From Pelomonas sp. Root1217 (GTDB taxonomy: Bacteria > Pseudomonadota > Gammaproteobacteria > Burkholderiales > Burkholderiaceae_C), in the NCBI RefSeq assembly GCF_001425705.1, contig NZ_LMDC01000029.1, forward strand, positions 186,001 through 250,000: a stretch of DNA of 64,000 nt, written 5' to 3'. The notes below the pieces were generated by a model, which was not told where the DNA came from, did no database searches, and was given only the letters and a program-made list of their open reading frames with translations. Position 1 is the stretch's first letter. Every line of letters starts with the position of its first letter. Of this stretch, positions 4,194-63,140 are shown in pieces. A program made the position numbers and the translations under genes.

Positions 4194-5108
4194 ATGATGA
4201 GCCTGATGTTGCCCTTGGCGATGCTGGTGGCCCTGATGGTGGACCGCATCGGTGAACCACCCGTGTGGGCGCACCCGGTCGTTGGCATGGGACGCTATCT
4301 CGGCCTCTTCAAGCTGACGAAGCTGCCTCCGGCCCTGGGCTTTGTCGCCGGTGCGCTGGCCTGGCTTGTCGGCGCCGCGATGGTCGCCTTCATCGCGCTG
4401 TGGCTGGAGGGCTGGGTGCTGCTCCTGCTGCAGCCTTGGCATTCACCGCTGCGCCTCGTTGGCACTGCCTTGGCTGTCGGCCTGCTGCTCAAGCCACTGC
4501 TCGCCTGGCGCATGCTGGCCAACGAGGCGCTTGCCGTGGAAACCGAATTGAGCAGATCGCTGGACGCCGCCCGTGTGCGCCTCTCACGCCTGGTCAGCCG
4601 CGACACGTCGGTGCTGAGTGAGACCGACGTGCGCGAAGCGGCCATCGAGACGCTGGCCGAGAACCTCAACGACTCGGTCATCGCGCCGCTGTTCTGGTTC
4701 GCCATCGCCGGGCTGCCGGGCGCGGCGATCTACCGCTTTGCGAACACGGCAGATGCCATGTGGGGCTACCGCGACGAGCGCGAATGGTGCGGCAAATGGG
4801 CTGCGCGGGCCGACGACCTGCTGTCCTGGCTGCCGGCCCGGCTGACCGCGCTGGTGCTGATGCCGCCCTCCTTTGGCCGGCTGCCGCGCGAAGCCCGGCG
4901 CACGCCGTCGCCCAACAGCGGCTGGCCCATGGCGGCGATGGCGCTTCGGCTGGGCCGGCGGCTGTCCAAGCCGGGCGTCTACATGCTGAATGCCGAAGGA
5001 GAGCCCGTGCAGACCGGTGACCTGAATGCCGCCCGCGATGTTGCACAGCAGGCCGTCACCGTGGGCGCGGCGCTGATCGTGGCCCTCGCCTGGGCGCTGC
5101 GGACATGA
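4194..5108 (+). CDS. cbiB: Adenosylcobinamide-phosphate synthase
   Basis: Integral membrane protein of 304 residues, the CbiB/CobD family size. It joins adenosylcobyric acid to (R)-1-amino-2-propanol or its phosphate. Typical features are the opening membrane segment ending VDRIGEPPVWAHPVVGMG, the central ETLAENLNDSVIAPLFW and the FANTADAMWGYRDERE segment. The start follows the corrected stop of the DUF1636 gene by three bases; a second ATG lies one codon on. The end overlaps cobC by ATGA. Named cobD in some systems. Confidence 0.93.
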   Translation: MMSLMLPLAMLVALMVDRIGEPPVWAHPVVGMGRYLGLFKLTKLPPALGFVAGALAWLVGAAMVAFIALWLEGWVLLLLQPWHSPLRLVGTALAVGLLLKPLLAWRMLANEALAVETELSRSLDAARVRLSRLVSRDTSVLSETDVREAAIETLAENLNDSVIAPLFWFAIAGLPGAAIYRFANTADAMWGYRDEREWCGKWAARADDLLSWLPARLTALVLMPPSFGRLPREARRTPSPNSGWPMAAMALRLGRRLSKPGVYMLNAEGEPVQTGDLNAARDVAQQAVTVGAALIVALAWALRT

Positions 5109-6079
5109 ACGAACCGCTGCTGCCCGAACATGGAGGACCGGACGGCGGCCCACCGGTGGCACACGACTTTTCGACCAACGCCAGCCCGCTCGGCCCGCCA
5201 CCGGTGCTGATGAAGGCCATGCAGGCCGCCGACCGCCAGGCCTATCCCGACCCGAATTACCGCGCGCTGCGCCTCCACCTTGGTGACGCCGACTTGGTCC
5301 TGCCCACGGCAGGAGGTGCCGAGGGCATACGCCGGCTGACCTTGGCGGCGATGCTCGCCGGCCGCCGCGAGGTCTGGGTGCCGCAGCCCGGCTTTGGCGA
5401 CTATGCACTGGCGGCCCGGGCGCTGGGCCTGCCCGTCAAGCCCTATGCCGTCCCGGCCGAAATCCGTCCGACGGCGCCCGCCCTGGTCTGGATCTGCGAG
5501 CCCTGCAACCCGACCGGTGCCAGCGTGCCGGCATGGCCGGAGCTCGATGCCCTGATCGTGGTTGACCGCGCCTACGAGCCGCTGCGCCTGCACGGTGCCG
5601 CCACCTCGCTGCCGCGCGGCGCCTGGCAGCTCATCTGCCCGAACAAGGCGCTCGGGCTGACGGGCATCCGTGCGGGCTATTTCATCGCGCCGGCCGCTGA
5701 CGAGGTCTGGTCCCGTGCGTTGTCGCTGGCGCCCAGCTGGGTGTTGTCGGCCGAGGGCGTGGCGATGCTGATGCACTGGAACAGCGACGACACGCAAGCG
5801 TGGTTGGCCAAGGCTCGCCATCAGTTGCGCGAATGGTCGACGAAGCAACGCGCGCTGCTGGCCGACCTGGACTGGTTGCAACAACCCAGTTGCACCAACT
5901 TCTGGCTGGCCCGCCCACCGCGCCTCGATATCGCGACCCGCCTGCGCGAACGCGGCATCGGCGTGCGCGACACAACCTCTTTCGGCCTGACCGGCTGGGT
6001 GCGCGTTTCGGCCCAGCCGCTCGCCGCCCAGCAGGCGCTCCAACAGGCCCTGCTTGAAATCGAAAGCGAAGACTCATGA
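5105..6079 (+). CDS. cobC: Threonine-phosphate decarboxylase-like PLP enzyme
   Basis: Fold-type I PLP enzyme, 324 residues. N-terminal DFSTNASPLGPP motif, substrate and cofactor segment CEPCNPTG, and the Schiff-base lysine in CPNKALGLTGIRAGY near residue 180. By family and position next to cbiB it is CobC, taken to supply the aminopropanol(-phosphate) linker from L-threonine phosphate. It resembles HisC, but the window has a separate hisC and this copy lies in the cobalamin operon. ATGA overlaps bind it to cbiB and, at its own stop, to a short open frame that leads into cobQ. Confidence 0.9.
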   Translation: MNEPLLPEHGGPDGGPPVAHDFSTNASPLGPPPVLMKAMQAADRQAYPDPNYRALRLHLGDADLVLPTAGGAEGIRRLTLAAMLAGRREVWVPQPGFGDYALAARALGLPVKPYAVPAEIRPTAPALVWICEPCNPTGASVPAWPELDALIVVDRAYEPLRLHGAATSLPRGAWQLICPNKALGLTGIRAGYFIAPAADEVWSRALSLAPSWVLSAEGVAMLMHWNSDDTQAWLAKARHQLREWSTKQRALLADLDWLQQPSCTNFWLARPPRLDIATRLRERGIGVRDTTSFGLTGWVRVSAQPLAAQQALQQALLEIESEDS

Positions 6080-6156
6080 GTGCAGCGCCGGGCCGTCCCA
6101 AGCAAACTCGCTCCCGCTCGGCGGGACAGGCCGAAGGCCGAAGGGTGCATCAATGA
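6076..6156 (+). other. Short bridging open frame between cobC and cobQ
   Basis: Twenty-six codons (MSAAPGRPKQTRSRSAGQAE then GRRVHQ). Its ATG overlaps the cobC stop and its TGA overlaps the cobQ ATG, so both ends are ATGA junctions. The DNA inside looks like an intergenic repeat, with CCCGC-TCG-GCGGG and repeated GGCCGAAG. It may be translated only to carry ribosomes across the repeat; no function is claimed for the peptide. Confidence 0.3.
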
Positions 6157-7595
6157 ACAGCAAAGCAGTGATGGTGCTCGGCACCACAAGTGGCGCGGGC
6201 AAGAGCTGGCTGGCCACGGCGCTGTGCCGCTGGTATGCCCGCCAGGGACTCAAGGTCGCGCCGTTCAAGGCGCAGAACATGAGCAACAACGCGCGCGTGG
6301 TGCCCGGCTTGAACGGCCTGATGGGCGAGATCGGCTCGGCGCAGTACTTCCAGGCCCTGGCCGCCAACCGCGTGCCCGAGGTGCGCATGAATCCGGTGCT
6401 GCTCAAACCCGAGGCGGATACGCAGAGCCAGGTCGTCGTGCTCGGCGAAGTGGACCCGGCCATGGCCACCATACCCTGGCGCGAACGCAGCGCCCTGCTG
6501 AAGCCCCGCGCCCGCGCGGCCCTGCACGAGCTGATGCGGGAGAACGATGTCGTCGTCATCGAAGGCGCGGGCTCGCCGGCGGAGATCAACCTGGCGCCCA
6601 GCGACTACGTCAACCTCGGCACCGCTCGCGACGCCAACGCCGCCTGCCTGATCGTCACTGACATCGACCGCGGCGGCGCCTTCGCCCACCTGTACGGCAC
6701 CCACCAGCTGATGCCCGATGACGTGCGCGCCCAGGTGCGCGGCTTCGTGCTGAACCGCTTCCGCGGCGACGCCGGGCTGCTGTCACCCGGGCCCGAGCAG
6801 CTCGAACACCTGACCGGCGTGCCCACCATCGCCACGTTGCCGATGTGGCGTGGCCATGGCCTGCCCGAGGAGGATGGCGTGTTTGATGACCGCACCACCG
6901 GCACCGGCCTGCACATCGCCGTCATCGCCTACCCGCGCATCTCCAACCTCGATGAATTCCAGCCGTTGCGCCAGTTGCCCGGCGTGCGCCTGTCCTGGGC
7001 GCGCGAGCCCAAGGACCTGGCCGGCGCGGACTGGATCGTCCTGCCCGGCTCCAAGTCCACCGCGGCTGACCTCGCCTGGCTGCGCGCGCAAAAGCTCGAC
7101 GCCGCCATCAACAGCCACCGCGGCCGCGTGCTCGGCATCTGCGGCGGCCTGCAGATGCTGGGCGAGGCCCTGATCGACACGCATGGCGTCGACGGCAATG
7201 CGCCGGGCCTGGGCCTCCTGCCGCTGGTGACCGTCTTCGAGCCCGAAAAGCTGCTGCGCAGCGCGGAGTTCGCTTTCTCAACTTCACTGGACGGTGGCTG
7301 GCAAGCCCTGGCCGGCGTGCAGGCCAGCGGCTATGAGATCCGCCACGGCCGCACCCAGCCCCACGCCGGCCTGCCGCCGCCGCGCGTGGCGCTGCGCAAT
7401 GCCGCCGGCGAGGCGGTGGGGTGGCAGGCCGGCCAGGTGCTGGGCGTCTACGCCCATGGCCTGTTCGAGCAGCCAACCGTGCTCAAGGCCCTGTTCGGCC
7501 ACGCTGGCCGGTCGCTGGACGCCGTTTTCGATGGGCTGGCAGACTTCATCGACCTGCACTTCCAACCGGGCAAGATTGCGGGTTTGATCAGCTGA
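6153..7595 (+). CDS. cobQ: Adenosylcobyric acid synthase (glutamine-hydrolysing)
   Basis: 480 residues from the ATG at 6153; longer readings add a repeat-derived leader and are unlikely. CobQ amidates side chains b, d, e and g of adenosylcobyrinate diamide. P-loop GTTSGAGKSWLATAL near residues 10-24, then APFKAQNMSNNARV, the CobQ hallmark. C-terminal triad-type glutaminase with cysteine in LGICGGLQMLG near residue 328 and late VYAHGLFE. Last recognisable cobalamin gene here; cobU/P, cobS/V and cobT do not follow. Confidence 0.95.
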   Translation: MNSKAVMVLGTTSGAGKSWLATALCRWYARQGLKVAPFKAQNMSNNARVVPGLNGLMGEIGSAQYFQALAANRVPEVRMNPVLLKPEADTQSQVVVLGEVDPAMATIPWRERSALLKPRARAALHELMRENDVVVIEGAGSPAEINLAPSDYVNLGTARDANAACLIVTDIDRGGAFAHLYGTHQLMPDDVRAQVRGFVLNRFRGDAGLLSPGPEQLEHLTGVPTIATLPMWRGHGLPEEDGVFDDRTTGTGLHIAVIAYPRISNLDEFQPLRQLPGVRLSWAREPKDLAGADWIVLPGSKSTAADLAWLRAQKLDAAINSHRGRVLGICGGLQMLGEALIDTHGVDGNAPGLGLLPLVTVFEPEKLLRSAEFAFSTSLDGGWQALAGVQASGYEIRHGRTQPHAGLPPPRVALRNAAGEAVGWQAGQVLGVYAHGLFEQPTVLKALFGHAGRSLDAVFDGLADFIDLHFQPGKIAGLIS

Positions 7596-7604
7596 CCGAA
7601 CCCC

Positions 7605-9474
<1,870 letters not shown>

Positions 9475-10908: not shown

Positions 10909-11508
10909 ATGAGACTGACCACCCCTGCCCTGCTCGCCGCGACACTTGCCTTCAGCGCCACCGTGGCGTCGGCTCATCCGGTGACCTATATCGGCACGCT
11001 GAGCAACCTCGGCGAGCCTGCGACGGCCGCTGGATCGCTGGGCACCGGCACGGTCAGCCTCGTCTTTGACGACGACACCTTCACGATGAAGGTCGACGTG
11101 ACGTTCAGCGGCCTGAGCGGCAATACGACGGCAAGCCACATCCACTGCTGTACCAGCGCGGCGGGTGCAGGCTCGGCGGGCGTGGCAACACCGCTGCCGA
11201 CCTTTCCACTGTTCCCTCTCGGCGTGAAGTCCGGCAGCTACTCGATGACCTTCGACATGACGCAGGCGTCGAGCTGGAACCCCGCCTTTGTGACGGCCAA
11301 CGGCGGCACGACCTCAGGCGCTTTCGCCGCGTTTGCGACCGGCCTCGCTGACGGCAAGGCCTATCTGAACATCCATTCGAGCACCTCGGGTGGCGGCGAG
11401 ATCAGGACTTTCCTGGTGCCGTCGCCCGTGCCGGAGCCCGAGACCTATGCGCTGATGCTGGCTGGCCTGGGCCTGCTGGTGCTGCGCCGCCGCAGTCTCG
11501 GACGCTGA
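10909..11508 (+). CDS. CHRD-domain protein with PEP-CTERM anchor
   Basis: 199 residues. Signal peptide of about 21 residues ending ASA, then a CHRD-like domain with TASHIHCCTSA and, later, KAYLNIHSSTSGGGEIR. The C-terminus is VPEPETYALMLAGLGLLVL followed by RRRSLGR: the PEP-CTERM sorting signal (VPEP, membrane helix, arginines) processed by exosortases in exopolysaccharide-producing bacteria. So it is exported and probably attached to the surface; its role is unknown. No exosortase is visible in the window. Followed by a terminator. It interrupts the his locus on the opposite strand. Confidence 0.85.
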   Translation: MRLTTPALLAATLAFSATVASAHPVTYIGTLSNLGEPATAAGSLGTGTVSLVFDDDTFTMKVDVTFSGLSGNTTASHIHCCTSAAGAGSAGVATPLPTFPLFPLGVKSGSYSMTFDMTQASSWNPAFVTANGGTTSGAFAAFATGLADGKAYLNIHSSTSGGGEIRTFLVPSPVPEPETYALMLAGLGLLVLRRRSLGR

Positions 11509-11540: not shown

Positions 11541-11818
11541 CGGGCCGAGCGCCGGGCCTGCCATTGGCCAGAGGCCAATGGCCTTCCGTAGGCACCAGCA
11601 GTCCGCAGGAACTGCTGGTGTCCGACTCCAGTTCGCCTAGCCGGCCCGCGTTGGCGATGTGCTTGCCGGTCGAACCGGCAAGCATCGCCATCCCCTCGAG
11701 GGCTGAGGCCGGACACATGGCGCCCGTTGGGCGGCATGTGCCTGCCGAAGGGCTGCTGCACTGGCCGCAGCGCGATCTGCAAGACCGTCTGACGTACCCT
11801 TCAGACGAGGGGCCGCGT
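11541..11818. repeat. Hairpin array between the CHRD gene and hisA
   Basis: Gene-free 278 bases with at least four strong inverted repeats in a row: GCCATTGGCC/GGCCAATGGC with loop AGA (11560-11582); CACCAGCAGT/ACTGCTGGTG with an 8-base loop (11593-11620); a 16-pair stem with a two-base bulge (11653-11689); and CACATG-G-CGCCC/GGGCG-G-CATGTG with loop GTT (11714-11740). It lies between two converging transcripts, so it may stop both, but spacing and number exceed an ordinary terminator. No gene is called here. Confidence 0.7.
11636..11702 (-). repeat. Dispersed hairpin repeat, copy 1
   Basis: Matches 41711-41777 in inverted orientation. The outer part CCTAGCCGGCCCGCG, then Y, then TGGCGATGTGCTTGC differs at one base. 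The inner stem differs but stays paired (CGGT-CGA-ACCG here, GGC-5 bases-GCC there), followed by GCAAGCATCGCC. The compensatory changes suggest the fold is what is kept. Strand is given as the direction that matches copy 2 on +. Confidence 0.75.
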
Positions 11819-23216: not shown

Positions 23217-23558
23217 ATGAAGTTCCTGATCCCCGCTTTCGCTGCCGTCACCGTCTTTGCCGCCCAAGCCGGCAACAACGCCACGCCCGAGCAGGCCGAA
23301 CTGCGCGCCGAGTGCGCCAAGAGCTACACAGACACCAGCAGCGTCGCCACGCCGGTCGCTTCGAACGAGTACCAGTTCGTCTACGCCAACGGCAAGTACA
23401 AGGGCGAAGCCAAGCCGGGCAAACTGCTGGCCTGCACCGAGCAGCAGTACGCTGCCTACCTGGACAAGGCCGACCCGGCCAAGGTGATGGCTGCCTACCC
23501 GACGGCCGCCGGCCGCCCGACAGCTGTCAAGAAGAAGGCCGAGCCTTTCCGTCTGTGA
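23217..23558 (+). CDS. Small secreted two-cysteine protein, paralogue 1
   Basis: 113 residues; unknown family. Signal peptide of about 18 residues ending AQA. Mature part has ELRAECAKSYTD, later LLACTEQQYAAYLDKADPAK, then VMAAYPTAAGRP and a lysine-rich tail. Two cysteines could pair. Shares C-x-x-S/A-Y, C-T/D-E-x-Q, YL-D/E-KADP and YPxAAG with the next two genes. A strong terminator follows, so it has its own transcript end. Confidence 0.8.
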   Translation: MKFLIPAFAAVTVFAAQAGNNATPEQAELRAECAKSYTDTSSVATPVASNEYQFVYANGKYKGEAKPGKLLACTEQQYAAYLDKADPAKVMAAYPTAAGRPTAVKKKAEPFRL

Positions 23559-23605
23559 GTCGCATGTGATTCGCCGCTGATCGTTTTCAAATCGTCAGCC
23601 AACGA

Positions 23606-23634
23606 GGCGCCCTGCGGGGCGCCTTTTGTTTTTT
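23606..23634 (+). terminator. Rho-independent terminator after small secreted paralogue 1
   Basis: GGCGCCC, loop TGCG, GGGCGCC, then TTTTGTTTTTT: a seven-pair GC stem with a long T tract, the clearest terminator in the window. Confidence 0.9.
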
Positions 23635-23687
23635 CGGCGCGGCCGACCTAATGTTGAAAGTCACTGGAATTTCCAAGGAGCCACGCC

Positions 23688-24029
23688 GTGAAGACCCTCA
23701 TCGCCACCCTGGCCTGCCTGGCCAGCACCGTCGCCCTCGCCGACGACGCCGACATGCAAAAGGCCCGGTCCGAATTGCGCACCGGCTGCGCACAGAGCTA
23801 CGCCAGCTTCAGCGCCCATCACCCAGCCGGCAATGCACCCGAATACCGCGGCGACAAGTACCCGGGCGACACCCAGTACTACGGCGACGCCAAGCCCTGC
23901 ACCGAAGAGCAACTGGCCGCCTACCTCGACAAGGCCGACCCCGCCCTCGTCATGCGCGGCTACCCCTCCGCCGCCGGCCGCCCCAAGGCCAAGAAGCCGG
24001 CCACGGCGCCTTCTGCACCCAAGGGCTGA
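23688..24029 (+). CDS. Small secreted two-cysteine protein, paralogue 2
   Basis: 113 residues, signal peptide of about 18 residues ending ALA. Mature part: ELRTGCAQSYASFS, a tyrosine-rich middle (YRGDKYPGDTQYYGDAKPC), TEEQLAAYLDKADPALV and GYPSAAGRP, then KAKKPA tail. Same layout as paralogues 1 and 3. A GGAG ribosome site lies before the ATG. Function unknown; exported by signal peptide, probably periplasmic. Confidence 0.8.
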   Translation: MKTLIATLACLASTVALADDADMQKARSELRTGCAQSYASFSAHHPAGNAPEYRGDKYPGDTQYYGDAKPCTEEQLAAYLDKADPALVMRGYPSAAGRPKAKKPATAPSAPKG

Positions 24030-24037
24030 GTCGATAC

Positions 24038-24059
24038 AAAGGCGCTTTCGGGCGCCTTT
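24038..24059 (+). terminator. Hairpin after small secreted paralogue 2
   Basis: AAAGGCGC, loop TTTCGG, GCGCCTTT: eight pairs ending in only three T. Probable weak terminator between paralogues 2 and 3. Confidence 0.6.
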
Positions 24060-24138
24060 CGATTGGTGCGATGCGGCGTGCATTTGCTTGCACTTGAGCG
24101 TAGCCTTGCACTCACCTTGAGCAGCAAGGAGGTCCGCC

Positions 24139-24498
24139 ATGAGAACCCTCGCAGTCACCATTGCGTCTCTGGTCACCGCGCTGCCGGCCTTCGCGGCCGA
24201 CACACCGGCCACCTACGCCCAGGCCGTGTTGCGCGATGGTTGCGCCCAGGCCTATGCCAGCCACGTCGCCACATACTTCGCCGCAGGTGCGGTAGCGCCG
24301 ACCTTCACCGGCGAACGCCCCAAGGGCGACCACCGGTACTACAACGACGCCAAGCCCTGCGACGAAGCGCAGTACGCGTCCTATCTGGAGAAGGCCGACC
24401 CGGCCACGGTGGCGATGGCCTATCCCACCGCCGCCGGCAAGGCCAAGTCCAAGAAGGCCAACGCCGTCACGGCGGCGGCGGTGCCCAAGTCGAAGTGA
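24139..24498 (+). CDS. Small secreted two-cysteine protein, paralogue 3
   Basis: 119 residues, signal peptide ending AFA near residue 19. Mature part: VLRDGCAQAYASH, a basic/tyrosine middle (GERPKGDHRYYNDAKPC), DEAQYASYLEKADPATV, AYPTAAGK and a lysine/alanine tail. Preceded by AGCAAGGAGG, a strong ribosome site. Converges on the wax ester synthase gene eight bases on. The three paralogues differ enough to be an old duplication. Confidence 0.8.
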   Translation: MRTLAVTIASLVTALPAFAADTPATYAQAVLRDGCAQAYASHVATYFAAGAVAPTFTGERPKGDHRYYNDAKPCDEAQYASYLEKADPATVAMAYPTAAGKAKSKKANAVTAAAVPKSK

Positions 24499-41152: not shown

Positions 41153-41680
41153 ATGAACGCCCTCGTCACCCAGGCTCGTGGCAAAGCCGGCGCCGGCGGC
41201 GCCGCCGAGCCCCAGCAATACCTCACCTTCATGCTCGGCGGCGAGGTCTTCGCCATCGGCATTCTGGCCATCAAGGAGATCATCGAATACGGTGGCCTGA
41301 CACCCGTGCCGATGATGCCGACCACCATCCGCGGCGTCATCAACCTGCGCGGCGCCGTCGTGCCGGTGATGGACCTGGCCGCCCGCTTCGGCCGCCCCAG
41401 CGCCGAGGTCGGCAAGCGCACCTGCATCGTCATCGTCGAGCTGCGCGTGCAGGACGAGCAACAGGTCATCGGCGTCATCGTCGATTCGGTCAACGCGGTG
41501 CAGGAGATCGCGCCGGCCGACATCGAGCCCGCGCCAGGGTTCGGCATGCGCATCGCGCCGCAGCTCATTGCCGGCATGGGCAAGGTGAATGGCAAGTTCG
41601 TCATCCTGCTGGACATCGAGCAGGTGCTGTCCCTGCAGGAACTCGACCAGTTGCAGAGCCTCAAGCCCGCTGAAACATGA
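41153..41680 (+). CDS. cheW: Chemotaxis coupling protein
   Basis: 175 residues. CheW fold: YLTFMLGGEVFAIGILAIKE, VINLRGAVVPVMDLAARFG and VIGVIVDSVNAVQEI. Links receptors to CheA. Its stop overlaps the ATG of a short open frame through a repeat element that separates it from cheR. Confidence 0.94.
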   Translation: MNALVTQARGKAGAGGAAEPQQYLTFMLGGEVFAIGILAIKEIIEYGGLTPVPMMPTTIRGVINLRGAVVPVMDLAARFGRPSAEVGKRTCIVIVELRVQDEQQVIGVIVDSVNAVQEIAPADIEPAPGFGMRIAPQLIAGMGKVNGKFVILLDIEQVLSLQELDQLQSLKPAET

Positions 41681-41832
41681 GCCCCTCGTCCAAGGAGTAC
41701 CTTGGCCGGTCCCCCGCGGGGACGGCGATGCTTGCGGCATTGAGCCGCAAGCACATCGCCAGCGCGGGCCGGCTAGGGAGCGGCCCGGCGCTCAGCCCGC
41801 AAACTCCATGCGCCGCGCGATGGGGCGCCTGA
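41677..41832 (+). other. Short bridging open frame across the repeat between cheW and cheR
   Basis: Fifty-one codons, starting MSPSSKEYLGRSPAGTAMLA. The ATG overlaps the cheW stop (ATGA) and the TGA ends one base before the cheR GTG. A second, nine-codon frame (41808-41837) has a TGA overlapping that GTG. The frame runs straight through the dispersed hairpin repeat; the same frame in copy 1 is also open and gives a similar peptide (AMLA, KHIA, AGRLG). Function, if any, is probably to keep ribosomes moving to cheR. Confidence 0.35.
41711..41777 (+). repeat. Dispersed hairpin repeat, copy 2
   Basis: Stem GGCGATGCTTGCGGC (41724-41738), loop ATTGA, GCCGCAAGC-AC-ATCGCC (41744-41760) with a two-base bulge, followed by the conserved GCGCGGGCCGGCTAGG. 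Inverted copy of 11636-11702, with compensatory stem changes. The similarity continues weakly to about 41800 (GGCCCGGCGCTC-GCCCG) where copy 1 has extra hairpins inserted. Confidence 0.75.
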
Positions 41833-41833
41833 C

Positions 41834-42637
41834 GTGATCGAGCTGGGCGACCAGGAGTTCGCACGCTTCCAGGCCTTCATCTACGAAGCGGCCGGCATCA
41901 GCCTGTCCGACAGCAAGAAGGTGCTGGTCAGCGGCCGCCTCGAAAAGCGCTTGCGCCACCACCGGCTCGGCAGCTATGGCGACTATCTGCAACTGCTGAG
42001 CCAGCCGGCCCAGGCGGCAGAGCGCCAGATCGCCATCGACCAGCTCACCACCAACGAGACCTACTTCTTCCGCGAGCCACGTCATTTCGAGCTGCTGCGC
42101 GACTGGGCGCTGGCAGCGCGGACAGCCGGCCGCGGGCTGCGCGTCTGGAGCGCCGCCTGTTCGACCGGCGAAGAGGCCTACAGCATCGCCATGGTGCTGG
42201 CCGACTGCCTCGGTGAAACACGGCCCTGGGAGGTGGTGGCCTCTGACATCAGCAGCCGCGTGCTGCAGCGCGCCCGGTTCGGCCACTACCCGGTGGAACG
42301 CACGACGAACGTCCCGCCCGACTATCTGCAGCGCTTTTGCCTGCGCGGCACCGGCGAGCAGACAGGCACCCTGCTCGTGCAGCGCTCGCTACGCCAGCGG
42401 GTGCAGTTCACGCAGATCAACCTCGACAAGACCCTGCCGCCACAGGGCGCCTTCGACGTGATTTTCCTGCGCAACGTGATGATCTATTTCAGCACCGACA
42501 CCAAGCGCCGCGTGGTGTCGCGGCTGGTCGGCCAGCTCAAGCCCGGGGGCCACCTGATGGTCGGCCACTCCGAGACGCTGAACGACATCAGCAACCAGGT
42601 CCGCCCGGTCATGCCGTCGGTCTACAGCAAGCCTTGA
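41834..42637 (+). CDS. cheR: Chemotaxis protein methyltransferase
   Basis: 267 residues from a GTG. N-terminal helical domain; TTNETYFFREPRHFELL, SAM-binding WSAACSTGEEAYSIAMVL and the catalytic DVIFLRNVMIYF. Methylates receptor glutamates from SAM. It lies after the repeat but within the che operon; no good ribosome site precedes the GTG, in keeping with coupling to the short frames upstream. Confidence 0.95.
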   Translation: MIELGDQEFARFQAFIYEAAGISLSDSKKVLVSGRLEKRLRHHRLGSYGDYLQLLSQPAQAAERQIAIDQLTTNETYFFREPRHFELLRDWALAARTAGRGLRVWSAACSTGEEAYSIAMVLADCLGETRPWEVVASDISSRVLQRARFGHYPVERTTNVPPDYLQRFCLRGTGEQTGTLLVQRSLRQRVQFTQINLDKTLPPQGAFDVIFLRNVMIYFSTDTKRRVVSRLVGQLKPGGHLMVGHSETLNDISNQVRPVMPSVYSKP

Positions 42638-59749: not shown

Positions 59750-61516
59750 ATGAAGCAGTCCTCTACCGGCATCCCGATGCACCAACTGCGTCGCTTGGCC
59801 GCCATCACCGCCACCGCCTTCGCACTCGGCGCGAGCGCCACCACCGCCCTCGCCCAGACCTATCCCGCCTGGGCGCCCGACGTCTACTACACGGCCGGCA
59901 CGGTCGTGACCTACCAGGGCCACAACTACCGCGCCCTGGTCAACCAGACCGACTACTCGTCGACCGGCTGGAACCCGAGCAACGCCTCGCTGTGGACGGA
60001 CCTCGGTGCCGCCTCCGGCCCGGCACCGTCGCCTGCGCCCACGCCCGCCCCGACCCCGGCGCCGACCCCCGCTCCCACGCCGGCCCCGTCGCCCGCGCCC
60101 AGCCCCGCCCCGGCCCCCACCGGCAACTGCGCGCCAGTCTGGTCCAGCAGCACGGCCTACAGCGGCGGCGCCATCGCCAGCAAGGGCACGACCAACTACA
60201 AGGCCAACTGGTGGACCCAGGGCAATGACCCGGCCACCAACAACGGCCCGACCGGCAGCGGCCAGCCCTGGACCTCGCAGGGCGCCTGCACGACCGGCCC
60301 GGCGCCCAGCCCGAGCCCGAGCCCCTCGCCGAGCCCTTCGCCTTCGCCGTCTCCCTCTCCCAGCCCAGCCCCCTCGCCCGCCCCCGCGCCCGGCCTGAGC
60401 GACCCCAACGCCAAGTCCGCCAATCAGAACGGCCGCGCCTACACCGTCTACTACCCGAGCTGGAGCGACAACTGGTTCGATGCCACTGGCATGACGATGA
60501 ACCAGGTCTTCGTGGCCAGCAACTTCGCGCGCATCCCGGCCAACTACACCCATGTGGTGGCGGCCTTCGCCCAGCCCAACTTCTCCTGGGGCGGCATGGC
60601 GGCCAACAACTGGTCGGGCACGGGCATCAACTTCAACGGCCGGCCCTCCGACATCAAGGCCGCCATCGATGTGCTGCACGCCCGCAACATCAAGGTCATC
60701 CTGGCCGTGGGTGGCGCCACCTACAACAGCTGGGGCACCTTGTCGGCTGAAGGCCATGCGGGCAGCGGCCCGACCATCACGGCCCTGTCCAACCTGATGA
60801 AGGACGTCGGCTTCGACGGCCTGGACGTGGACTACGAGGTCGACGGCATCACGACCGATGCCTATGCCGGCGCCGTGAAGGCCATGCGCAAGGCGGTGGA
60901 CCTGGCCGGCGGCGGACGCATCCTGACGGTGGCCGCCTGGTCCTCCGGCTCGGACTGCACCGCCTCCACGGGCAGCGACCCGCAGTGCAACGGCGTGGGC
61001 ACCAGCTACTGGGGCGGCAAGGCCGGCGGCGAGCGCCTGCTCGTCAACGCCTACCCGGCGCTGAAGACGGCCTTCAACATCGTCAACATCATGAGCTATG
61101 ACGCTCGCTACGAGCACTACGACGGCGTGACCGCATGGAAGTCGTACCGCCAGCTCTTCCCGAGCAGCACCATCGTGTCCATCGGCTTCGAGACGGCGCC
61201 GGAAGGCTGGTCGGGCGGCCAGCTCGTCGTCAACAACGCCGACGCGCAGTGCACGGGTTCCGTCATCCTGCAGAACAGCTACGGCGCCAACATCAACCAG
61301 CCCTACTCGGTGGAGCGCTACCTGAACGCGGTGACGACCAGCACGCTGGCCAACAGGAACCCGCGTGACGGCGCCATGCTGTGGCAGGCCCTGAAGACGA
61401 CCAGCGGCAGCTGCGGCAGCGCGCCCCTGGCCTCGCCGGGCGCCATCGGCAAGAAGGCCGCGGGACTGCTCAACCTCGTCGACGACCCGGCGCTGCAGAA
61501 CGCGCCCTGGAAGTAA
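59750..61516 (+). CDS. Secreted GH18 chitinase with two chitin-binding modules
   Basis: 588 residues. Signal peptide of about 35 residues ending ALA. First CBM5/12-type module (YPAWAPDVYYTAGTVVTYQG, W and Y rich), PAPTP linker, second module (WSSSTAYSGGAIASKG, NYKANWWTQGNDP), SPSP linker, then GH18 with GFDGLDVDYEVDG (DxxDxDxE; the glutamate is the acid). Hydrolyses chitin outside the cell. The next gene shares both binding modules but a different catalytic domain. Confidence 0.95.
   Translation: MKQSSTGIPMHQLRRLAAITATAFALGASATTALAQTYPAWAPDVYYTAGTVVTYQGHNYRALVNQTDYSSTGWNPSNASLWTDLGAASGPAPSPAPTPAPTPAPTPAPTPAPSPAPSPAPAPTGNCAPVWSSSTAYSGGAIASKGTTNYKANWWTQGNDPATNNGPTGSGQPWTSQGACTTGPAPSPSPSPSPSPSPSPSPSPSPAPSPAPAPGLSDPNAKSANQNGRAYTVYYPSWSDNWFDATGMTMNQVFVASNFARIPANYTHVVAAFAQPNFSWGGMAANNWSGTGINFNGRPSDIKAAIDVLHARNIKVILAVGGATYNSWGTLSAEGHAGSGPTITALSNLMKDVGFDGLDVDYEVDGITTDAYAGAVKAMRKAVDLAGGGRILTVAAWSSGSDCTASTGSDPQCNGVGTSYWGGKAGGERLLVNAYPALKTAFNIVNIMSYDARYEHYDGVTAWKSYRQLFPSSTIVSIGFETAPEGWSGGQLVVNNADAQCTGSVILQNSYGANINQPYSVERYLNAVTTSTLANRNPRDGAMLWQALKTTSGSCGSAPLASPGAIGKKAAGLLNLVDDPALQNAPWK
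60019..60120 (+). repeat. Low-complexity proline linker 1 of chitinase 1
   Basis: Tandem PAPTPAPTP-type codons with high C content joining the two chitin-binding modules. Prone to length change by slippage. Confidence 0.7.
60301..60391 (+). repeat. Low-complexity SPSP linker of chitinase 1
   Basis: Repeated Ser-Pro codons with varied third bases, before the GH18 domain. Confidence 0.7.
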
Positions 61517-61537
61517 GCCGGCTCTCCTGAGCTGAAC

Positions 61538-61571
61538 GCCGCCGCACCGGACTGCCGGGCGGCGGCCTTTT
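61538..61571 (+). terminator. Terminator between the two chitinases
   Basis: GCCGCCGC (61538-61545), 13-base loop, GCGGCGGC (61559-61566), C and TTTT. Eight-pair GC stem with a short T tract, 25 bases before chitinase 2, so the second gene may need its own promoter or read-through. Confidence 0.75.
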
Positions 61572-61595
61572 CCATCCTCTTCTCGAAAGACCTCC

Positions 61596-63140
61596 ATGAT
61601 TTCGCGCCCACCTCTGCCGCGCGCGGCCGCGCCCTGGCTGCTCGCCGGCGCCCTTGCCTTCGGCAACCCGGCCTTCGCCCAGACCTATCCCGCCTGGACC
61701 GCCGACGTCTACTACACGGCCGGCACGGTCGTGACCTACAACGGCCGCATCTACAAGGCCACCGTCAACCAGACTGACTACGCCAGCACCGGCTGGAACC
61801 CGACCAACGCCTCGCTGTGGACGGACATCGGCGCCGCCTCCGGGCCCGCACCCGCGCCCACGCCGGCACCCACACCAGCGCCGACACCGGCTCCCACGCC
61901 CGCCCCTGAGCCCGCCGGCACCTGGAGCGCCAGCGCCGCCTACCCGGTCGGCGCCGTCGTTTCGTACCAGGGTGTGAACTACAAGGCCAACTGGTGGACC
62001 CAGGGCGACAACCCTTCCACGCACAACGGCCCGACCGGCAGTGGCCAGCCCTGGACCATCGTCAGCGGCACGCCGGCGCCTTCGCCCGCCCCCTCACCTG
62101 CGCCGGCGCCTACGCCAGCTCCCAGCCCGGCACCCACACCGGCGCCAGCGCCAGCGCCTTCACCCACGCCCGCTCCGCCCCCCGGCAAGCACCAGCTCAT
62201 CGGCTACTGGCACAACTTCACGAACCCCGCAGGGCCGACCTTCCCGATCAGCGAGGTGCCAGCGGCCTACGACGTCATCGTGGTCGCCTTCGCCGACGAT
62301 GGCGGCAACGGCGCCATCACCTTCAACCTCGACGCCGGCTTCGGCGGCGAATCGCGCTTCATCGCCGACGTCGCCACCGCCCGCGCCAAGGGCAAGAAGG
62401 TTGTCCTGTCCTTCGGTGGCCAGAACGGTACGGTGACGCTGAACAACGCGACCCAGGTGACCAACTTCGTCAACAGCGTCGAAGCCATCCTGCGCAAATA
62501 CGGCTTCGACGGCATAGACATCGACCTGGAAAGCGGTGCCGGCGTGTCCTGGGGGGCGGCGGTGCAGACCAATCTGGTCACCGCCGTGAAGCAGCTCAAG
62601 GCCCGCATCGGCAGCAGCTTTTATCTGTCGATGGCGCCGGAGCACCCGTATGTGCAGGGCGGGTTCGTTGCCAGCAGCGGCATCTGGGGCGCCTACCTGC
62701 CCATCATCGACGGCCTGCGCGACGAGCTGTCGGTGCTGCATGTCCAGTACTACAACAACGGCGCTGTCTACACGCCTTATTCCACCCAGGGCCTGGCCGA
62801 GGGCAGCACCGACATGCTGGTGGCCGCCAGCCGCATGCTGATCGAGGGCTTCACGACCAACAACGGCACGGGGTCCTATGTCTTCCGCGGCATCCGGCCC
62901 GACCAGGTCGCCTTCGGCCTGCCGTCGGGACCGTCGTCGGCCAACAGCGGCCAAGCCAGCCTCGGCAACATCACGGCGGCGTTGAACTGCCTGACTAGGC
63001 TGACCCAGTGCGGCGCCATCAAGCCGCCTGTGGCCTACCCGACGTTGAAGGGCGTCATGACCTGGTCCATCAACTGGGACAAGAAGGACGGGCAGTCCTT
63101 CTCCAACGGCGTGCGCAATGCGCTGAACGCTCTGCCCTGA
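61596..63140 (+). CDS. Secreted GH18 chitinase 2 with two chitin-binding modules
   Basis: 514 residues. Signal peptide ending AFA. Two CBM5/12-type modules nearly copied from chitinase 1 (YPAWTADVYYTAGTVVTYNG; WSASAAYPVGAVVSYQ, NYKANWWTQGDNP), joined by PAPTP linkers, then a distinct GH18 domain starting HQLIGYWHNFTNPAG with YGFDGIDIDLESG (DxxDxDxE). The catalytic subfamily differs from chitinase 1 (ChiC/ChiD-like), so the pair probably attacks chitin in complementary ways. Confidence 0.94.
   Translation: MISRPPLPRAAAPWLLAGALAFGNPAFAQTYPAWTADVYYTAGTVVTYNGRIYKATVNQTDYASTGWNPTNASLWTDIGAASGPAPAPTPAPTPAPTPAPTPAPEPAGTWSASAAYPVGAVVSYQGVNYKANWWTQGDNPSTHNGPTGSGQPWTIVSGTPAPSPAPSPAPAPTPAPSPAPTPAPAPAPSPTPAPPPGKHQLIGYWHNFTNPAGPTFPISEVPAAYDVIVVAFADDGGNGAITFNLDAGFGGESRFIADVATARAKGKKVVLSFGGQNGTVTLNNATQVTNFVNSVEAILRKYGFDGIDIDLESGAGVSWGAAVQTNLVTAVKQLKARIGSSFYLSMAPEHPYVQGGFVASSGIWGAYLPIIDGLRDELSVLHVQYYNNGAVYTPYSTQGLAEGSTDMLVAASRMLIEGFTTNNGTGSYVFRGIRPDQVAFGLPSGPSSANSGQASLGNITAALNCLTRLTQCGAIKPPVAYPTLKGVMTWSINWDKKDGQSFSNGVRNALNALP
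61846..61914 (+). repeat. Low-complexity proline linker 1 of chitinase 2
   Basis: PAPTPAPTP codon repeats between the chitin-binding modules, like that of chitinase 1. Confidence 0.65.
62071..62184 (+). repeat. Low-complexity proline linker 2 of chitinase 2
   Basis: PAPSPAPAP-type codon repeats ahead of the GH18 domain. Confidence 0.65.

Follow-up and report, generated by a model that had tools for sequence, protein, structure and literature searches.

Why should the gap between two genes of an operon be spanned by an open frame that begins at the upstream stop and ends at, or within a few bases of, the downstream start, and why should this be seen at three places in one stretch of DNA? The question is raised by cheW-cheR, and equally by cobC-cobQ and coaD-ferredoxin, in a stretch of 64,000 nucleotides from Pelomonas sp. 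Root1217, hereafter the window. The answer that we favour, with a probability of roughly 80%, is that insertions resembling the mycobacterial interspersed repetitive units (MIRU, reportedly described by Supply and others in 1997) enter overlaps of stop and start codons and would be retained when the coupling of the two genes survives, a reading that draws on sequence-level evidence.

The three bridging frames described in the initial annotation are real, their coordinates hold, and the gene names are consistent with the Pfam domains found (Aminotran_1_2 for cobC, CbiA and GATase_3 for cobQ, CheW, CheR, Fer4 for the ferredoxin and CTP_transf_like for coaD). Between cobC and cobQ the frame runs from the ATG at 6076 to the TGA at 6154-6156, and the new RTGA start of cobQ is supplied by the final bases of the 77-nt unit. 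Between cheW and cheR it runs from the ATG at 41677 to the TGA at 41830-41832, which is followed by a single C and then by the GTG at 41834. The coaD-ferredoxin frame reads on the minus strand from the ATG at 8975 down to 8844, and its stop falls 7 nt into the ferredoxin frame, whose start is at 8853. The bridging frame opens at the upstream stop because the inserts sit within the stop-start overlap itself. The features are collected in Table 1.

Table 1. Features of the window that bear on the bridging frames, in order of position.
Feature	Position	Strand	Basis or remark
cobC-like aminotransferase, upstream gene	5105..6079	+	Pfam
cobC-cobQ bridging frame, 26 codons (MSAAPGRPKQTRSRSAGQAEGRRVHQ)	6076..6156	+	ATGA at both ends
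cob-family 77-nt unit, 3' of host ATGA	6080..6156	+	empty/filled sites, dispersed copies
cobQ, downstream gene	6153..7595	+	Pfam
21-nt ferredoxin start, second duplicate; present ferredoxin gene begins here	8833..8853	-	
coaD-ferredoxin bridging frame, 43 codons	8844..8975	-	
21-nt ferredoxin start, first duplicate (old start)	8955..8975	-	
che-family core, truncated (model positions 32-98), in mosaic of other palindromes	11636..11702	-	
cheW	41153..41680	+	Pfam
cheW-cheR bridging frame, 51 codons	41677..41832	+	
che-family element, full length (model positions 1-122)	41680..41801	+	profile match
che insert 3' tail, variable, reaching cheR start	41802..41833	+	copy comparison
cheR	41834..42637	+	Pfam

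Taken alone, the three cases of the window are weak evidence, and chance is possible there because shuffles in GC-rich DNA match two of the three. With the spacing held fixed, shuffled inserts placed a stop within 10 nt of the start with a probability of 0.94 for cob, 0.02 for che and 0.50 for coaD-ferredoxin. Two points of the initial description stand only in part. All three segments had been called hairpin-bearing, which applies to the che insert, with its strong RNA fold (z -3.3), but not to the single cob sequence, whose fold is no more stable than those of shuffles (z +0.6), though one cob stem is kept by paired changes: in the second cob hairpin the two arms change together, with GC at columns 55-63 in 54 of the 113 copies and CG in 52. 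They had also been called repeat elements, which is right for cob and che, whereas the coaD-ferredoxin segment is a local duplication and not a dispersed repeat. A scan of the window against Rfam gave no match at the gathering score. Other repetition in the window includes a segment of about 130 nt present three times at a spacing of about 460 nt (23399-24456), as well as neighbouring frames with repeated modules and a proline-rich linker of 12-nt period (59836-62182); the truncated che core of Table 1 lies downstream of a stop at 11506-11508. The evidence beyond chance comes from copies outside the window.

Matches to the cobC-cobQ segment in its own genome, among the 40 scored of 68 candidates, include five that are essentially full length, from ATGA to ATGA. 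Named genomes were scanned with an exact 28-nt internal pattern, from which the element ends were excluded, and this returned 102 stretches with 108 copies, 106 of them with full flank. The carriers are Variovorax, Pseudorhodoferax, Pelomonas, Roseateles, Rhodoferax, Hydrogenophaga, Rivibacter, Paucibacter and MAGs; these genera belong to the order Burkholderiales, an assignment shown for Variovorax and also for Diaphorobacter. Mycobacterium does not occur among the titles of the 102 stretches retrieved by this exact pattern. A left NTGA was present in 102 of the 106 flanked copies, an NTGA (RTGA or TTGA) at +77 in 84, and both together with an open frame in 82. An evaluation confined to 80 of the stretches used 85 of the 86 copies there. 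When 80 named stretches were joined with the genus loci, the set held 183 copies, 155 of them distinct by flank since the named and unnamed sets overlap; 154 copies were evaluated and 143 had a clear downstream frame. The 77-nt, 26-codon arrangement is shared by 117 of the 154. At three loci (L082, L142 and L158) the units stand in tandem, head to tail every 77 nt, with an RTGA at each junction.

The family also reaches beyond these genera and beyond this length. Nine of 300 sampled genomes of the order, with three candidates scored per genome, had a cob match at E 1e-6. The forms that other genera in this sample carry all run from RTGA to RTGA and measure 65 nt (seven copies), 74 nt (one) and 80 nt (one). 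The same sample contained 13 core-related matches at eight loci, mostly in two genomes (G137 and G176), which have no left NTGA. In these two genomes, from another family of the order, the core-related palindromic repeats (L393-L398) are a possible source of the coupled element. For two 65-nt copies on plasmids the annotation made by others can be compared: in one record (L410) the two RTGA coincide with the end of the upstream CDS, at 2004, and with the start of the following CDS, at 2066, and in the other (L411), where solely the downstream start is annotated at the copy, the next CDS likewise starts at 2066, so that in both the annotated downstream start lies 65 nt after the left ATGA. In the latter, a Variovorax plasmid (1988-2080), the bases preceding both ATGA are alike (GGAGGTTGCCTT), and a ribosome-binding-like stretch seems to have been duplicated together with the start. 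A subfamily of 149 nt (L413 and similar copies) has an extra hairpin (GACATGGGATGCCC...GGGCATCCCATGCC); it too stays in register and finishes on the following start.

How such an insert would enter a locus can be read from genomes in which the same site is empty. Across the 20 genomes of the genus, own included, cobC-cobQ is filled in three, reduced to a shortened remnant in two, free of any insert in 14 and not evaluable in one. All 14 insert-free sites have an RTGA start, and the two remnants, of 26 and 23 nt from ATGA to ATGA, are both open and in register. At a second locus (L022) the whole che-family insert, its tail included, lies within an RTGA overlap; in the 19 of 20 genus genomes that could be compared (the 20th gave no locus) this site is filled in one, and the 18 others comprise 16 with a plain RTGA, one with a longer gap (L368) and one with a different insert (L375). 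The last is a seemingly unrelated insert of 68 nt, placed in the same overlap as the che insert, and its frame, open over 23 codons, terminates on the following start. A third locus (L005) is filled in the own genome and in G007, which has the 149-nt form; the 18 genomes that lack the element there have the start GTGA (12), ATGA (2) or ATGG (4). The filled site of the own genome reads GTGA-element-ATGA, and therefore the right-hand A came from the element or from mutation.

From the comparison of empty and filled sites it follows that the left codon is that of the host, and that the right RTGA arrives with the insert. The duplication is of TGA, possibly with one further base; the first letters of the left and right NTGA show no association, which speaks for a duplication of 3 rather than 4 nt. 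Orthologous empty sites are mostly simple ATGA or GTGA overlaps. For cheW-cheR, three related loci, with proteins 59-66 percent identical, are without the element, and one of them (L224) is a plain ATGA.

Judged from its copies, the che insert is a second family that shares the habit of the cob family. The own genome, in which 40 of 191 candidates were scored, and the genus loci together provided 72 distinct copies, of which 51 have a full left end and 43 of these have both a left start and a downstream start. A coding-like frame stops 1-16 nt before the element in 47 of the 51, a start-like codon stands at the left end in 44 of the 51, and the 3' tail varies among copies. The initial annotation had asked how often a frame joins the flanking stop and start compared with shuffled sequence, where a lack of excess would count against its idea; run on this family, the comparison gave an excess and left the idea unrefuted. 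In 26 of the 43 copies the bridge ends no more than 10 nt from the downstream start, against 9.6 in shuffles and 3 and 3 in the other frames. These 26 comprise 11 of 21 copies in the own genome and 15 of 22 in the genus, with a Fisher P of 1e-10 versus the pooled frames; this and other P values are optimistic and the counts less independent than they appear, as copies share ancestry and some che copies are orthologous pairs. The offset to the start is +1, an overlap of the ATGA kind, in ten bridges and -4 in nine. The other 17 of 43 miss the assigned start by more than 10 nt, start calls being uncertain: eight end 32-114 nt early, one 14 nt early, five 11-28 nt late and three far into the gene. 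A script for the strands of the neighbours gave +/+ in 22, +/- in 3, -/+ in 19 and -/- in 7 of the 51 copies; this conflicts with the in-frame stops in 47 of the 51, and the result was set aside, the script's codon model being judged too weak to distinguish strands.

Comparison among genomes marks the coaD-ferredoxin segment as a local duplication, of another kind than the dispersed elements yet under the same frame rule. The insert has no clear second place in its own genome, where the 40 scored of 105 candidates contained, besides itself, one weak match of 34 nt. A match was obtained in 19 genomes, own included. In 11 of them the ferredoxin start comes directly after coaD, and five carry a duplication of 83, 98 or 122 nt, with the old start upstream and the new start downstream. 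The seven duplicated units of these five genomes are without exception 2 modulo 3 in length and open, with the stop 7 nt inside the next start (one unit, L242, contains an N). The remaining three genomes (L245, L249 and L252) have a different palindromic insert, rich in CACAGAGGCACAGAG, between coaD and ferredoxin; therefore this site receives several kinds of insert.

Length and stop content of the cob copies bear on whether the frame itself matters. Relative to the left start, the downstream frame is at 2 modulo 3 in 128 of the 143 copies, at 0 in nine and at 1 in six, an argument that rests on copies whose start is seen independently, lengths derived from the stop being 2 modulo 3 by construction. 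Among the 33 copies with a bridge of other than 26 codons the counts are 26, 6 and 1 for 2, 0 and 1 modulo 3, with 16 of the 26 in-register copies belonging to the single 149-nt subfamily. In-register lengths besides 77 are 23, 26, 50, 65, 74, 80, 89, 146 and 149; 72 and 78 are out of register. The 15 out-of-register copies include L319 and L116, and L136 is a further exception with a spacing of 72, read by eye. In L319 (from G008) two tandem cob units stand at a spacing of 78, and the bridge continues without a frame change into the downstream gene, which it extends at the N terminus.

Outside the search pattern, the bridging frame has no stop in any of the 113 distinct 77-nt copies, against 9.6-12.6 expected from the substitutions seen; the other five frames have 10, 2, 5, 11 and 2, against expectations of 12.4-13.3, 0.7-1.8, 4.8-4.9, 8.5-11.2 and 0. 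Over the whole body the count for the bridging frame is 0 versus 16-17, a figure biased for the named copies, in which the pattern fixes part of the body, and under a uniform expectation two other frames are low there as well (2 versus 8.2 and 3 versus 10.6). For the 51 genus copies alone the expected number of stops in the bridging frame is 3.7-10.1, depending on the measure. The bridging frame looks selected. The initial annotation had offered two interpretations, and both gain support at the level of sequence: that the repeats carry their own reading frame, from the arrangement common to most cob copies, and that selection keeps the frame, from stops that are absent only there, from the length register and from seemingly unrelated inserts that behave alike. 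The interpretation is supported for two dispersed families and one local duplication.

The rival that survives best, although we consider it unlikely, is site preference alone, in which the element lands at TGA overlaps and its consensus is open by accident, the frame itself being under no selection. A single consensus of a single length does cover 117 of the 154 copies, and several other frames of the element are also open in most copies. This explanation is opposed by lengths other than 77, which are mostly in register, and by a stop deficit that outside the search pattern is limited to the bridging frame; moreover, the che family, the coaD-ferredoxin duplication and the L375 insert converge on the same arrangement with other sequences. 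A second alternative, that the bridging frame encodes a small functional peptide, appears very improbable. None of the 113 distinct 77-nt copies has the frame closed, and the N-terminal half varies little, although most of the named copies were found by an exact pattern located there. The second half, however, varies freely (codon 18 is A in 55 and R in 50, codon 20 is G in 56 and A in 52), the changes track base pairing, as in columns 55-63, and swap residues with no stop gained, and the che and cob peptides are, by eye, unrelated in appearance.

Less probable still is that these are ordinary REP/BIME sequences, acting behind stop codons as 3' mRNA stabilisers or attenuators and moved by a RAYT transposase, with the frames as by-products. 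According to PMC2817692 REP/BIME are, as here, palindromic, extragenic and present in many copies per genome, and the core-related repeats without a left NTGA, found mostly in G137 and G176, would suit such an origin, as would a Y1 transposase domain match in 20 of 20 genus genomes. In contrast to REP/BIME, full units here occupy stop-start overlaps and include a frame, the copies are placed at start codons with the new start as part of the insert, and 47 of 51 che copies follow a stop on the same strand. RAYT was also considered as the mobiliser: 12 Y1 loci (L350-L360 and L362), searched with the models of both families, gave no che match and four weak cob matches, the best at E 0.084, none of them confident. 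The mobilising enzyme was not found in this search, which covered Y1 domains in 20 genus genomes and the 12 loci. Chance in GC-rich DNA, for which shuffles equal two of the three window cases, has next to no likelihood against the che bridge ends, the cob register and the cob stop deficit in copies elsewhere, unless common descent by itself accounts for these.

MIRU-like insertion with retention of coupling thus remains as the preferred reading, and its steps may be proposed as follows. Short elements, probably non-autonomous and mobile, would insert at N-TGA overlaps of stop and start within operons. The host start would stay on the left, and the insert would bring the right-hand RTGA, duplicating TGA. 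The old start would then open a short frame through the element, ending on the new start or a few bases from it. A ribosome terminating at the end of the upstream gene would initiate afresh at the old start, read through the element and initiate once more at the new one; by this double restart the insert would be nearly transparent to downstream expression. An insertion that breaks the handover, or an indel that does so afterwards, would be lost. At coaD-ferredoxin, a local duplication of the start region would yield the same outcome. What the copies themselves display is the site of insertion, the duplicated TGA, the uninterrupted frame, the length rule and the shortage of stops; ribosome re-initiation, mobility and selection through downstream expression we infer.

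The copies for which a matched empty site exists offer a natural experiment for re-initiation, and the inserts may aid the placement of start codons in Variovorax, Roseateles and their relatives. The tandem 77-nt arrays are possible strain markers. More broadly, MIRUs are usually regarded as mycobacterial matter, and the same arrangement, unit length and register rule in Betaproteobacteria, in more than one family, suggest that small mobile DNA quite generally finds a safe harbour in stop-start overlaps and that the inserts permissible there are limited by translational coupling.

Among known systems, Rickettsia palindromic elements and other ORF-carrying MITEs are similar in being small mobile sequences whose open frame is tolerated by genes; however, as described in PMC2229807, they are fused in frame inside protein genes, whereas here the frame is a separate one that terminates on the following start. 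Exceptions resembling a fusion are L319 and L136.

The closest likeness is to MIRU. According to PMC12548453, these appear mobile, insert at start codons and have an ORF coupled to the next gene at a spacing of -4 nt. The senX3-regX3 MIRU measure 77 and 53 bp (PMC4213456), and both lengths are 2 modulo 3. In the tuberculosis complex a region of the MIRU-VNTR type widens the distance between rnc and fpg to 279-358 bp, whereas M. leprae has 54 bp there, M. a. paratuberculosis 20 and the other species displayed a few bases (PMC2734929). Like the cob family, MIRU are short dispersed intergenic units, of about 40-100 bp; here the 77-nt unit belongs to a family with 155 copies distinct by flank, forms of 65, 74 or 80 nt occur in other genera, and the 149-nt form is longer than the MIRU range. 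Insertion at a stop-start overlap with duplication of the start is common to both, at three loci here, one of them a copy of the che family, and so are an internal ORF with a 4-nt overlap onto the following start (82 of the 106 named cob copies) and tandem arrays, here at 77-nt spacing. The differences are that MIRU are mycobacterial, whereas the present inserts belong to Burkholderiales, comprise at least two sequence families and occur in 65-, 74-, 80- and 149-nt forms. A search of titles in the open-licence PMC literature found none on MIRU-like elements in Burkholderiales, which is weak evidence of absence. By likeness of arrangement, and with MIRU known from descriptions, the inserts work like MIRU. 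A wider proposal, to which we would give even odds, is that the Burkholderiales hold "translation-transparent" mobile inserts of several unrelated families, with machinery that reads stop-start overlaps and frames that exist only to pass ribosomes on, and that these, moved by some transposition system, would represent in another phylum what MIRU are in mycobacteria, as an independent counterpart.
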